33,482 nt of DNA from an uncultured Verrucomicrobia subdivision 3 bacterium (lineage in GTDB: Bacteria > Verrucomicrobiota > Verrucomicrobiia > Limisphaerales > UBA8199), in the NCBI GenBank assembly GCA_903913865.1, contig CAIWMU010000030.1, positions 1-33,482 on the forward strand. The letters are read 5' to 3'. The position numbers and the translations under genes were made by a program. Below are positions 22,136-29,865 of the stretch, in pieces (the first letter of the stretch is position 1; each line of letters starts with the position of its first letter). Under the pieces are notes generated by a model. The model did no database searches. It was not told the origin of the DNA and was given only the letters and a program-made list of their open reading frames with translations.

Positions 22136-23746
22136 ATGAATGACTCGGGGAAACAGTTTGACGGTATTTTGGACGATTATTTTGAGCGGTTGCTGGCCGA
22201 TGTTCCAACATTCGCCGTAGTCTCTGGAGGATTGGCGGAGGGAGAAGGCCGGTTGGGCAGGGCGGATGCAGCCTTTCATAAACGTCGCGAGGCTGCCCGA
22301 CAAAAGACCCTGCAGAGGCTCGATCAAATCTCCCCTGGAACCCTTTCGAAGGAGCAACATCTGGACAGACTCGCACTGAGGACCCAACTTCTGAGGGAGA
22401 CGGAGGATTTTTCCCGGAATCGGCACGAGATTGATCCCGGTGGTGCAGAGCAGATCCTTTCGATCCTGTTTCATGAACTGCAGCGGGCGGATGACGAGCC
22501 CGAGCGGGCTGCCGCCAACCTGCGTCGGCTGCTCAAGCAGGTTCCCGGGTTTCTGGAGGGGGCGGGCGAAACGCTCAAAACCCCTGAGCCGGTCTGGTTG
22601 AAAATCATGGAAGAGACCGTCTCCGGTGCCGAAAGCCTGCTTGGAGGGGTTCGGAAGGTTCTGGAAGCCTCCAATCCACGCCCTCAGGACGATGCGATGA
22701 TCGCATCCACCCAGAAGGCGCTCGAAGGTTACCGCGACCACGCATCCTCGCTCCCTCCTGCGCCGGATGGATCCTTTGCCCTGGGAGCGGCGGGGATGCA
22801 ACGACGTGTCCGGGACGAATTGGGCCTGGACTACACCCTGGGGCAAATCGAAGCGCTGGCTGTCGCGGAGGCGGATCGTGTTGGGGGACTGCTCCAGAAA
22901 GCCTGTGCGGCATTCGGTCGCAACAAATCGGCGGAGGAGATCATATCGACCCTTCGCTCTGAGTGGCATCCGGGCCAGCCCCTGTTGGAGCTCTACAGGA
23001 CTGAGACCACCCGGATCGCCTCAGCCTTCAAGCAGGCTGGTGCGGTGACCTTTCCGAAGGGGGATGAACTGGAGGTGAGACCTGTGCCGGAGTTCCTGCG
23101 GTCCCTGATCCCCACTGCGGCATACTCCCAGCCGGGGGCCTTCGCAAAGCGCCAGCGTGGGATCTTCTGGGTCAACGACCTGAGCCTCACGAAGGAGTCT
23201 GCTGCGGAGAAACTTGCCGAACAGCAGCAGCATTTCGGGATGTCCCTGACGTGCGCCCACGAAGCCTATCCCGGTCATCATCTGCAGTTTGTGACCGCCA
23301 ACCAGCACCCCCGCCGGTGGCGGAGGCTGTTTGCCCATGCTGTTTTTTATGAGGGGTGGACCCTCTGGTGCGAGCAGATGATGATGGATCTGCAGATCGA
23401 CTCCTCGCCGTGGCTTCCGGTCCAGCAATTGCATGATGCTCTCTGGCGATGCCATAGGATTCTGGTGGATCTCCGCCTCCAGACCGGCCGATATTCCCAT
23501 GCCCAGGCGACGCGCCACCTGCAGAAGCACATTGGCTTCACCCCAGCCCGCGCTTCGGCCGACGTAAACTGGTATACCGGCCAGCCGGGTGTCCCCATGA
23601 GTTACTGGCTGGGCCGGCTGGAAGTGGCCCGTCTGCATGCCAAGCTCGTTCAGGGTCGGGGCTGGGAGGTCCAGAGGTTCAATGATTGGCTCCTGAGCTT
23701 TGGCACAATTCCCCAGGCATGGATCGAAAAATACGGGCTGGATTGA
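22136..23746 (+). CDS. DUF885 family metallopeptidase-like protein
   Basis: 536 aa. The C-terminal half carries the family's HEAYPGHH motif (His375, Glu376, His381, His382) and a downstream YEGWTLWCE segment near residue 405, the two putative zinc-site elements of DUF885 proteins (PF05960). The N-terminal half is helical ([21 protein letters not shown], a typical start for the family). The family is thought to be peptidase-like; substrates are mostly unknown. Many relatives have a signal peptide or lipobox, but this one has neither, so it is probably cytoplasmic. Its stop is followed by a CCGGG/CCCGG hairpin with T-rich sequence, so it is probably transcribed alone. Confidence 0.88.
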
Positions 23747-23931: not shown

Positions 23932-25464
23932 ATGACTACCGAAAACGTGCCTGAGCAATTGCGGGCCGCCATCCAGATTTTGGAGAGGGCGGCTTCCGAC
24001 CGCATGCTCCTTTCCCAGATTTCCCAGGAGGAATACTCACGGTTGCTCAAGGCTGCCGGACAGGTTTTTCTGCCCGATCCGAGAGAACGCCGCCGGTTTG
24101 TGAAGTCCCGCATGCGGCAGAGGAAGGAGGAGAAGGAGCAGCGGACCCAGGGAGTGCTCAACCAGACGGGCATCAGGGAGTTGCGCCGCCGCCCTGTCTA
24201 TACAACACCCATGCCGCTGCCACCCCCATCCATCGAGCCCCAGGAAATCACCGATGATCCGGACTTTCGTGATGCCGTCGAGCCGCTGAACTGCTACATC
24301 TGCAAGCGGCAGTATTCCACCCTCCACCATTTTTACGACCAGCTCTGTCCCACCTGCGCGGATCTGAACTTCCACAAGCGGACGGAGTTGGCGGATCTGC
24401 GGGGGAGGGTGGCCCTGCTCACCGGGGGACGTGTCAAAATCGGTTATCAGACCGGCATCAAGCTTTTGCGGGCGGGTGCAGGGTTGATTGTGACCACCCG
24501 TTTTCCACGTGATTCTGCGGCCCGCTACGCCCGGGAACCGGACTTTGCTGAGTGGGGGCACCGCCTGGAGATCTTTGGGCTGGATCTTCGCCATACCCCC
24601 AGTGTCGAGGCGTTCTGCCGTCAGCTTAATGCCAACCACTCCCGTCTGGATTTCATCATCAACAACGCATGCCAGACGGTACGCCGCCCCCCCGGTTTCT
24701 ATGAGCATATGATGTCCCTTGAGCGGGCGTCGCTCAATTCCCTGCCGGAGCAGGCCCGTCGGCTTATTGGGGCGTATGAGGGGTTGCGCGGCTACCACAT
24801 CCTGCCGGAAGGCGGGGCTGAGGTATCGGTGCCGCAGCTGGTTTCCGATGTGGCAGGTCTTACCCATGCCGCCGAACTCTCTCAGGTGCCCCTGCTGCCG
24901 GAGGAGCTTGCCGCACAAAAGGGGCTCTTCCCCGAGGGCAGGCTGGATCAGGATCTGCAGCAGGTCGATTTGAGGGACCGCAACTCCTGGCGTCTTCAGC
25001 TGGACGAGGTTCCCTCAGTGGAGTTGCTGGAGGTGCAGCTGGTTAATGCGGTGGCCCCCTTCATCCTGAATGCGAGACTCAAGCCACTCATGCTCCGGTC
25101 CCCGGACCGTGACAAGCACATTGTCAATGTCTCCGCGATGGAGGGCCAGTTCTACCGCCGATACAAGACGACGCGGCATCCCCATACGAACATGGCAAAG
25201 GCAGCCCTCAACATGATGACCCGCACCTCTGCGGCTGATTATCAGGCCGATGGCATTCACATGAACGCTGTCGACACGGGCTGGGTGACGGATGAGGACG
25301 CATCGCCGATCGCCGAACGGAAGTTGCGCGAGCTTCAGTTTCATCCCCCTCTCGACATCGTGGACGGGGCAGCCCGAATTGTTGATCCCATCATCTCAGG
25401 GTTCAACACAGGCCAGCATGTTTGGGGAAAATTCTTGAAGGACTATCAGGAAACGGACTGGTAG
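23932..25464 (+). CDS. Zinc-ribbon/SDR fusion protein lacking catalytic Tyr
   Basis: 510 aa in three parts. Residues 1-110 are helical and highly charged ([14 protein letters not shown]). Residues 121-142 hold four cysteines, CYIC and CPTC (Cys121, 124, 139, 142), a likely zinc ribbon. Residues 155-500 are a Rossmann domain of the short-chain dehydrogenase class: TGGRVKIG cofactor loop (164-171), IINNAC (Asn244-Asn245-Ala246), NVSAMEG (Ser401), then [12 protein letters not shown], where the family YxxxK has Lys423 but Thr419 in place of Tyr. About 155 residues separate NNA and Ser, roughly three times the usual spacing. Cofactor binding is plausible; normal dehydrogenase chemistry is doubtful. 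Cytoplasmic, monocistronic, role unknown. Confidence 0.82.
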
Positions 25465-25489: not shown

Positions 25490-25523
25490 CCAATAAACGA
25501 AAGTGCCCGCGCAAGGCGGGCAC
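25490..25523 (-). terminator. Intrinsic terminator of the EF-hand gene
   Basis: GTGCCCGC (25503-25510) and GCGGGCAC (25516-25523) form a perfect 8-bp stem with a 5-base loop. On the minus strand the stem is followed by TTTCGTTTAT. It lies about 45 bases after the EF-hand gene's stop, and between converging genes. Confidence 0.8.
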
Positions 25524-25568
25524 CTTCCCCGAAACCACCGAGAACCTCAGCCGGGTCCGGCGGGTGAT

Positions 25569-26255: not shown

Positions 26256-27335
26256 TCAGCGGGACTTTGCATCCCTGGTGAGGCCCATTTTTCCACGCTT
26301 TGCCGCATCGTAGTCACCAATAAATATCCACCAGTTGTTTAGTGGGAGTTCCTGGAATGCCAGGCCGTTTGCAGGGCCTGGAATGTGCTGCATCCAGTAA
26401 ACAAACCAACGGATGCTTGAGCCGCCCCAGCGCTGGCAGTTCATCCTGGTCCTGGAACCACTACCATCCGGTTTCCAGTCGTCCATGTCGGTTTCAATAT
26501 ACCGGGGGTTTGCCCAATCATAATCCTTTTCGCCGTTTGGGGGATAGTGGGCCCACCCGCATCCGGGATGGACGATCTTGCATGTGCCATCGCTGCCCAC
26601 GAAACGGCCCCAGAACAGGAGATCCGGCCACTGCTGTGCGGGGGTGTCATCCCGCCCATCCACGTGGTTCAAGACAGCCTCGATCTGATGAATGTGGTCC
26701 TCGACAGCCTCGGAAGCGCCCCGCTGGTAGTTGTAATGGTAAACCGTGTAGGTGCTTCCCAACACCGGCAGGTCATTGGGATCGCGGTCACTGTTGCTCA
26801 CATCCCCAAACGGGCTGGCCATGTTCGACTCCCAGAGGTCAACCTTCCCTCCATGATAGCCCCAGATCCAGACCTCCTTGACACCCTTCTGCTGGACCCA
26901 ATCCCGGATCCTTACGAGATCGAGAATGGCCCGGTAATCGGTCATCGGTTCCCGGTGTCCGGCTTTCGGGTAGGTGGGCACCGGGGCAAGAAACTCCAGG
27001 CTGCCAACGATGCTATAATGAATGCATGGTTGCGCGTTGGTGTTTGTGTAGCCCCGGTAGCGTGAGCCCTCCTGCAGGGCCTCAATGACCTCGAGAGTCT
27101 GACGCCGGGTTTTCTCCCGGGTCTCCTCCAGACTCGCCCCCCAATCCCCGGTTTGCCGGATGTCAATATTTGCGCCGTTGGTCGGAAAATAATGGATCAG
27201 CAGGACAGGCACGGTGAACACCCCTGCATCCGCCTTCCCCGCCACCCCTGCCTGACATCTTCCGCACTCCATCAGGGTGAACGCGAGCAGGACGGCCATG
27301 ACTCCCCAAAGCAAATAGGAACGAGCGATTATCAT
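26256..27335 (-). CDS. Secreted protein of unknown function
   Basis: 359 aa from ATG 27335, which has GGAGG at suitable spacing and begins a clear signal sequence (SYLLWGVMAVLLAFTLM); the open frame extends to 27497. I do not recognise a family. The mature protein is rich in Trp, Tyr, His and Asp, with segments VPVLLIHYFP, VWIWGYHGG, YHYNYQRGASEAVEDHIHQ, a Cys pair in GTCKIVHPGCGWAHYPPNG, and WGGSSIRWFVYWMQHIPG near the C-terminus. The WGYHGG and HPGCGWAHYPPN segments look like conserved active-site-like motifs, but no catalytic class can be assigned. It is divergent from the lipoprotein gene across a palindrome-bearing spacer. Confidence 0.75.
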   Translation of the reverse strand: MIIARSYLLWGVMAVLLAFTLMECGRCQAGVAGKADAGVFTVPVLLIHYFPTNGANIDIRQTGDWGASLEETREKTRRQTLEVIEALQEGSRYRGYTNTNAQPCIHYSIVGSLEFLAPVPTYPKAGHREPMTDYRAILDLVRIRDWVQQKGVKEVWIWGYHGGKVDLWESNMASPFGDVSNSDRDPNDLPVLGSTYTVYHYNYQRGASEAVEDHIHQIEAVLNHVDGRDDTPAQQWPDLLFWGRFVGSDGTCKIVHPGCGWAHYPPNGEKDYDWANPRYIETDMDDWKPDGSGSRTRMNCQRWGGSSIRWFVYWMQHIPGPANGLAFQELPLNNWWIFIGDYDAAKRGKMGLTRDAKSR

Positions 27336-27374
27336 TACCCCATCCTCCAGCACCCCGTCTGATTGGGCAAATCC

Positions 27375-27411
27375 ATTCGAATCGGGGCACCATGAATTCA
27401 TGGAATTCGAA
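27375..27411. promoter_or_regulatory. Palindrome cluster in divergent promoter region
   Basis: A perfect 14-base palindrome CCATGAATTCATGG (27390-27403) is flanked on each side by ATTCGAA (27375-27381 and 27405-27411). The arrangement is roughly symmetric and lies between the divergent secreted-protein (27335) and lipoprotein (27486) starts, so it could be an operator for one or both. Confidence 0.4.
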
Positions 27412-27485
27412 CATCGATTTCGTTGAACCTCGGACAAGTTTTTACGATTCACCTCCTTTTCGATGAAGAACCTATGCTGTGTTGC

Positions 27486-27947
27486 ATGAAAAATCAAAAA
27501 TCCGAGTGCCAGGGAATCAAATCCATCTCTTTTGGCCTGGTGCTGTTACTCTCAACCACGGGGCTTCTGCTGACCGGATGCAACAAGGCTGCAGTTCCTC
27601 CTCAAAAGCAGGAATCAGCCCCGGGCGCCAGTTCCGAACATGCAGGCACTTACAAGCTCCAGTCCATCAGCGGCAGCCAGTTGCCATGCAAGCCGCCGCA
27701 CGAGGGCGGTGCTCCGGAGGTTCAATCCGGATCGATCGTTCTGAATGCGGATGGCACTCTATCAAGCACCACAACATTCAAAATCCCATCCGGCCAGGTC
27801 ATGAATCGGGAGGTGCCGGGCACCTACACGCGTGAGGGGGCAAAATTCATCATGCGCTGGAAGGATGCTGGAATGACGACAGGAACACTGGAGGGGAGCA
27901 CGTTCACGATGGTCAACGAGGGCATGCCGTTCGTTTACAGCAAGTAG
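27486..27947 (+). CDS. Small lipoprotein with lipocalin-like domain
   Basis: 153 aa from ATG 27486; ATG 27474 is an alternative with a slightly better upstream purine stretch. The hydrophobic signal FGLVLLLSTTGLLLTGC ends in a clear lipobox (LTGC), so the mature protein is lipid-anchored. The remainder, starting AGTYKLQSISGSQLPC, is a short beta-rich domain with repeated Gly/Thr strands (GSIVLNADGTLSSTTTF, GTLEGSTFTMV), resembling lipocalin-like or META-like small domains that often bind ligands or have structural roles. No function can be given. A strong inverted repeat follows the stop. Confidence 0.78.
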   Translation: MKNQKSECQGIKSISFGLVLLLSTTGLLLTGCNKAAVPPQKQESAPGASSEHAGTYKLQSISGSQLPCKPPHEGGAPEVQSGSIVLNADGTLSSTTTFKIPSGQVMNREVPGTYTREGAKFIMRWKDAGMTTGTLEGSTFTMVNEGMPFVYSK

Positions 27948-28905: not shown

Positions 28906-29865
28906 CTAGCCCCGGCCATCCTCCGGCCGCGATGGACGGTAGGGAGGGAGGCAGGGCTCTATGTGGACCAGCACGTCGTAAACCGTTGGAATGCCTGCGC
29001 GCACGTTATCCTTGATGGCATGGGCGATTTCATGGGAGCGCTTCACACTCATTTCGGGGTCGACCTGTGCGTGCAGATCCACGTAGTAGGCGTAGCCCAT
29101 CTTCCTGACAAAACACTTCTCGATGCACTCCACTCCGGAGGTTTCCTGTGCGAGGCGGCGCACGGAATCAACGATGTTGGGATTGGGTGATTGATCCATC
29201 AACTCGCCGAGAGCCTGGCGGAGGAGTCTCCATCCGTTCCAGGCAATCACCAGTGCGGCGACGAGGGCGGCGTAATCATCCGCAGCCTCATACCCCTTGC
29301 CACCGATCAGGGCCACCCCTATGCCGACCGCTGCCGCCGCCGAGGTGATTGCATCGCTCCGATGGTGCCAGGCGTCGGTGTGCATCGCGGTGCTACCCGC
29401 GGCATCCGATTCCCGCAGAACAAATCGGAAGAGCGTCTCTTTGATGATGATCACCACAAAGAGCACCGCCAGCGTGAAGGGTGCGGGTGCCTGGTGCGGC
29501 TGCCGGACCTCCTGCATGGCTGTCACACCGATCCAAACGGCGGCTGCCAGCAGCATGCATGAAACCAGCCCTGCGGCGATCGGTTCCGCCTTTCCGTGTC
29601 CATAGGGGTGATCCTCATCGGCAGGCTGGGCTGCAACGACAATTGCCCGCCAGACCACGATGGAGCTGAAAATGTCCGACAGGGATTCGACGGCATCCGC
29701 CACGAGTGCGTGGGAATGGCCCACGATCCCCGCAAACATCTTGGTGCCAGCCAGCACCGTGTTGAGGAGCAACCCGGAAAGGGTCACCTGCAAACAGCGC
29801 TTCAGCCGCTGGTTGGGTGCTTGATGGTTTGGGATTGTCAAATGGAGCCTTGATCGGGAATTCAA
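28906..29865 (-). CDS. Cation diffusion facilitator metal transporter
   Basis: 319 aa, inner-membrane exporter of Zn2+, Fe2+ or related divalent ions by proton antiport. The transport site is visible as HALVADAVESLSD (Asp57, with Asp61-equivalent Ser61 and Asp64) in helix 2 and HTDAWHHRSD (Asp164, His168, Asp171) in helix 5, plus the conserved HPYGHGKAE loop (86-94). The C-terminal cytoplasmic domain (about 220-305) has the family's YYVDLHAQVDPEMSV and AHAIKDNVRA. The best-fitting start is TTG 29865, three bases after the DUF1080 gene's stop; TTG 29841 is also possible. The tight spacing suggests cotranslation with the DUF1080 gene, an unexpected partner. Metal specificity cannot be told. Confidence 0.92.
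   Translation of the reverse strand: MNSRSRLHLTIPNHQAPNQRLKRCLQVTLSGLLLNTVLAGTKMFAGIVGHSHALVADAVESLSDIFSSIVVWRAIVVAAQPADEDHPYGHGKAEPIAAGLVSCMLLAAAVWIGVTAMQEVRQPHQAPAPFTLAVLFVVIIIKETLFRFVLRESDAAGSTAMHTDAWHHRSDAITSAAAAVGIGVALIGGKGYEAADDYAALVAALVIAWNGWRLLRQALGELMDQSPNPNIVDSVRRLAQETSGVECIEKCFVRKMGYAYYVDLHAQVDPEMSVKRSHEIAHAIKDNVRAGIPTVYDVLVHIEPCLPPYRPSRPEDGRG

Follow-up and report, generated by a model that had tools for sequence, protein, structure and literature searches.

In classical SDRs the catalytic serine lies thirteen residues before the catalytic tyrosine. In some SDR enzymes this tyrosine has moved, giving Yx6K in FabI and FabL and Yx8K in FabV, and the motif of the divergent SDRs FabI and FabL is written as Yx6K or Yx2(x)Mx3K (PMC9260719). 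The ketoreductase SimC7 functions without a catalytic tyrosine (PMC5039031), and NmrA and HSCARG are SDR-like proteins which act as NADP sensors (PMC3793261).

The gene considered here lies in the window, the whole stretch of 33,482 nucleotides that was analysed. It belongs to a widespread bacterial family in which a fixed four-cysteine module is joined to an SDR domain with a changed active site, an architecture already recognised in a sequence-only reading of this DNA. The open reading frame and the residues picked out in that reading (C121, C124, C139 and C142, NNA at 244–246, Ser401, Thr419 and Lys423) are all correctly placed. Two Pfam models match above cut-off, adh_short at 160–250 and adh_short_C2 at 364–462, the halves of the SDR domain being parted by an insertion. 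The distance from NNA to the serine strand is 156 residues here, compared with approximately 52 in the consensus of 13 classical SDRs; the insertion thus amounts to some 105 residues, close to the figure of about 100 first proposed. Its first part is variable and its end is conserved (D339, D346, N351, W353). Neither Pfam nor NCBIfam holds a dedicated model for the family. None of the listed NCBIfam models comes near its cut-off with the 510-residue protein, and Pfam searches with the finger, the N-terminus and the insertion separately gave nothing above cut-off. The features of the gene are collected in Table 1.

Table 1. Features of the SDR-family gene and its downstream flank (window positions; residue numbers refer to the protein).
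Feature	Position	Strand	Basis or remark
Whole gene, 510 aa	23932..25464	+	helical N-domain, C4 finger and SDR domain with ~105-residue insertion; homologues full-length
Residues 1–112, mostly helical, charged, fast-evolving; helices 6–22, 32–46, 50–78	23932..24267	+	model of residues 1–156
C4 finger CX2C-X14-CX2C (C121, C124, C139, C142)	24292..24357	+	fixed in all homologues covering the region
TGGRVKIG (164–171), altered SDR glycine motif with Lys169	24421..24444	+	R167 and G171 112/112; K169 111/112
NNA motif (244–246) followed by near-invariant QTxRR, residues 244–253	24661..24690	+	112-homologue alignment
Insertion, ~105 residues, between NNA and alpha-E	24712..25005 (approximate limits)	+	conservation alignment
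Asn372, tetrad Asn position	25045..25047	+	111/112; placed by HMM alignment
Ser401-Ala402; canonical catalytic Ser column = 402	25132..25137	+	ungapped alignments
E404...K412...H416-x2-T419-x3-K423, putative replacement active-site set	25141..25200	+	E404, K412, H416, T419 and K423 each 112/112
12-pair stem-loop, candidate terminator, between the gene and the EF-hand gene	25499..25527	.	such sites no more numerous than in shuffles

The product of this gene has a Rossmann SDR fold, as seen with Pfam, Foldseek and VIA-align. Foldseek matches many classical SDRs with E-values down to 1.6e-9, and VIA-align superposes about 190–230 residues on classical SDRs with Z scores of 20–22 and an rmsd of 2.4–4.9 Å. 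The fold matches shown are SDRs, mostly classical, with no NmrA-like protein among them; 3lf2, whose title refers to an atypical catalytic centre, is one of the SDR matches. The full-length AlphaFold model (mean pLDDT 73, pTM 0.65) predicts the SDR core with confidence but does poorly at 87–114, 288–310, 331–353 and 404–415. The last of these is the active-site loop, where pLDDT falls below 50 and where the placement of Tyr408 or Tyr411 would be read.

Conservation was counted in 112 homologues from several phyla, each position being scored where it is covered. The four cysteines, Thr419 and Lys423 are fixed in every homologue covering them, and a canonical YxxxK, which would have counted against the sequence-only reading, is found in none of the 112. 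A second sampling, which partly re-found the same genes, returned the same motifs; in one read (L164) the pattern search caught the wrong stretch. An HMM built on 13 classical SDRs encoded in the collected loci aligns Thr419 with the catalytic tyrosine, ungapped to Lys423, and the best PDB match does the same, bearing out the original assignment of this residue to the tyrosine position of YxxxK. The PDB entry 3cxr and an hhalign comparison with only two SDRs align His418 with the tyrosine, with one inserted residue. Residue 418 is His in 108 homologues and Asn in 4, whilst Thr419 is present in all 112.

The catalytic serine had been assigned to Ser401, which is one residue too early. NVSAMEG stands opposite NLSSVAA, NICSMMS and NISSVAG without gaps, so that the serine column falls on residue 402, and in 3cxr the catalytic serine stands against Ala402. 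Of the 112 homologues, 111 have Ala at this position and one (L120) has Ser. Two members of the tetrad, Ser and Tyr, are thus lost, whilst Asn372 and Lys423 are retained. Alongside the set listed in Table 1, Pro417, Asn420, Arg252 and Gln248 are present in all 112 homologues and Arg251 in 111, and the spacings from K412 to K423 and from S401 to K423 are invariable across the family. Of the regions compared, residues 398–432 show the strongest conservation, with a mean entropy of 0.37 bits and 20 invariant columns out of 35 (other regions, 0.82–2.16 bits); the 26-residue stretch 398–423 ranks 8th of 485 such segments by conservation. The near-perfect conservation of the replacing residues suggests an enzyme that still works, by an unusual mechanism, and not a broken one.

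On the cofactor side, the motifs had been described as good. The Rossmann domain is indeed of SDR type, but its glycine motif has Lys169 in place of the second Gly of TGxxxGxG in 111 of 112 homologues, so that the family departs from the classical cofactor motif; the Gly is kept in L120 alone. Arg190, directly after strand beta-2, is invariant. Together with Arg167 and Lys169 of the glycine loop it is consistent with binding of the 2'-phosphate of NADPH, as established for SDRs, and a preference of the family protein for NADP may be expected.

The N-terminal region is the least conserved of the regions compared (mean entropy 2.16 bits). Folded alone, residues 1–156 give a model (mean pLDDT 88, pTM 0.42) in which helices are followed by the finger, and in the predicted structures the second CxxC of the finger opens a helix at 140–155. 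This layout resembles that of treble-clef fingers. The module, earlier termed a zinc ribbon, does have four fixed cysteines and is probably zinc-binding, but 'short C4 finger' describes it better, a helix starting at its second CxxC. With residues 1–156, Foldseek gave no match below 0.001, and the best VIA matches (Z 2.4 for CsfB and 2.0 for a ClpX model) span residues 107–156 only; the structure search thus placed the four-cysteine part in no finger class and says little about the N-terminal helices. The finger and helices are more likely to be a structural, oligomerising or partner-binding part than to contribute to the chemistry.

A pattern scan of GTDB gave at least 590 confirmed relatives. 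The 80 which were kept, mostly 61–76% identical, come from Verrucomicrobiota, Gemmatimonadota, Pseudomonadota (mostly Rhodanobacteraceae and Lysobacteraceae), Acidobacteriota, Actinomycetota and Myxococcota. A second, divergent clade of approximately 41–50% identity is found in Streptomyces, Tsukamurella, Deinococcus and other Actinomycetota-side genomes, and also in a single genome on the Acidobacteria side and a single one from the window's class. The family is patchily distributed, occurring in 1–9% of sampled genomes per phylum; these figures include overlapping repeat samplings of the same phylum, and the threshold was not the same throughout. It was present in 4 of 194 genomes of the window's phylum, in 18 of 198 and 22 of 246 genomes of the phylum of an Actinomycetota locus, in 2 of 249 for the phylum of a Dyella locus and in 6 of 149 and 11 of 247 for that of an Acidobacteria locus. 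In a profile search with a limit of 1e-45 no listed member is weaker than approximately 1e-90, and the family therefore looks sharply bounded. No phage match was found for it.

A FastTree phylogeny places the window protein among Verrucomicrobiota (support 96). The window's own genome holds a second copy (L082; contig C127, 148351–149889), 70% identical and in an open frame of 781 aa, which falls elsewhere in the tree with weak support. A second family copy is also found in a genome reached via a Gemmatimonas locus (G198, contig C41, 37779–38984); it matches residues 110–510 within a 707-aa open frame, and its N-terminus may differ. The most divergent member, L120, with Gly at the Lys169 position and Ser at 402, yet with HPHTNMAK present, may preserve an older state; its position in the tree is unsure owing to a very long branch.

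Directly upstream of the gene, and on its strand, is a DUF885 gene (22136–23746, +); downstream lies a convergent EF-hand gene. DUF885 is not conserved beside the family elsewhere, and a comparison of the 80 close loci and some 22 others, most of them from the divergent clade, turned up no conserved neighbour. Of the neighbour clusters, the two largest proved to be the family itself, in rows shifted by one length of the gene, and an overlapping ORF on the antisense strand. On a Tsukamurella plasmid (L090) a family member adjoins a nucleoside hydrolase gene, a single case. Elsewhere in the window, approximately 3.4 kb downstream, lies a gene for a CDF cation efflux transporter with a zinc-transporter dimerisation domain (28906–29865, −), which nothing links to the finger protein; a 413-aa ORF (26256–27497, −) has no Pfam match at 0.001.

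As to function, we favour an enzyme with a rebuilt site over a pure sensor. There is, in our estimate, an even chance that the protein is an NADP(H)-dependent SDR oxidoreductase with rebuilt acid–base machinery. In such an enzyme Asn372 and Lys423 would still hold the cofactor ribose and the relay, Ala402 and Thr419 would stand in for Ser and Tyr, and the proton would come from another invariant residue, most likely His416, with the help of Lys412 or Glu404. His416 lies seven residues before Lys423, as does the tyrosine of FabI and FabL, and this spacing, along with its conservation, makes it the likeliest donor; the spacing also suggests that it lies in the pocket. The SDR enzymes named at the outset, in which the tyrosine is displaced or missing, serve as precedents. 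A basic pocket formed by R251, R252, K412 and H416 would point to an anionic substrate. Against an enzyme, Ser and Tyr are both lost, which is more than in FabL-type cases, and the loci compared offer no conserved neighbour naming a pathway.

The sequence-only reading had taken the changed site, together with the metal-binding module and the charged N-terminal region, to suggest a role in NAD(P) sensing or binding. The protein would then be a sensor or scaffold which binds the cofactor without turnover, its finger and N-terminal helices signalling to a partner protein or nucleic acid in the manner of NmrA/HSCARG-type regulators. Replacement of both the Ser and the Tyr columns speaks for such a protein, the finger and helical domain are extra to the SDR fold, and NAD(P)-sensing SDR regulators have precedents (PMC3793261). 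Loss of the tyrosine is, however, insufficient in itself to carry this conclusion. A sensor requires the cofactor site, yet here the residues predicted to lie on the substrate side (E404, K412, H416, R251 and R252) are conserved to the same degree as the cofactor motifs, whereas the N-terminal region, which might contact a partner, varies most, and no linked regulator gene was seen in the loci compared. The fixed polar set (E404, K412, H416, T419, N420, K423, R251 and R252) would fit catalysis at least as well as sensing, and we consider a sensor rather unlikely.

A further reading keeps a catalytic tyrosine. Tyr408, within a shifted YxxxK (Y408-RRY-K412), would fold back into the active site in the clade of the window protein, where all 82 close homologues have both Tyr408 and Lys412. 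Tyrosine stands at 408 in 91 of the 112 homologues, but the divergent clade, which retains the rest of the set including Lys412, mostly has Ser, Gly or Ala here, besides Asn and Thr; residue 411 is mostly Phe, and Tyr411 is not kept family-wide. This lack of conservation in the divergent clade makes a replacement tyrosine unlikely. Tyr408 is moreover only 7 residues past Ser401, in the non-helical segment of low pLDDT, whilst Lys423 is the helix lysine aligned with the SDR lysine, and we judge this reading improbable. Still less probable is substrate-assisted reduction, in which the substrate donates the proton and an acid–base residue is unneeded, as in SimC7, which still reduces its substrate without Tyr and Lys (PMC5039031), for SimC7 keeps the Ser and has Ile and His in place of Tyr and Lys, the reverse of the pattern here, and such a mechanism would not explain why so many polar side chains near the site are invariant.

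If the rebuilt-site enzyme is taken further, this may be a widespread SDR family in which the Ser–Tyr pair has been swapped for a His-based acid–base site (HxxTxxxK), with a metal finger that links activity to a partner, to metal or to redox state; we offer this as a speculative and somewhat doubtful extension. Public plasmid records label family members simply as 'SDR family NAD(P)-dependent oxidoreductase', a name suggestive of ordinary chemistry, for which the sequence gives no support. An enzyme of this kind would be a natural example of an SDR active site that has been remade with neither Ser nor Tyr and is held constant across phyla, whilst a sensor would be a common regulator of which no study was found; neither a zinc-finger SDR nor an SDR family with Thr in place of Tyr came to light in a search of the open-access literature. 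Under either reading the invariant residues are direct targets for mutagenesis.

A number of parallels and differences can be set out against the described systems. The family shares with classical SDRs (FabG, gluconate 5-dehydrogenase, tropinone reductase; Z 20–22) the Rossmann fold, the NNA motif and the tetrad Asn and Lys. Unlike them, it has no catalytic Tyr or Ser, and it carries a Lys in the glycine motif, an insertion of approximately 105 residues and an N-terminal finger with helices. As in FabL and FabI, the candidate donor lies seven residues before the Lys (H416-x6-K423), but the family has His for Tyr, Thr419 at the Met position and extra domains; it also departs from the Gx5SxA cofactor motif of FabI, having G165-x5-Gly171 and no Ser. 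SimC7 keeps the Ser and is without the Lys, whereas the family keeps the Lys and is without the Ser. No sequence link was found to NmrA and HSCARG, whose role had first been proposed for it; set against these sensors, the family retains the Lys and Asn of the active site, and conservation is far higher in its active-site stretch than in its N-terminal domain.
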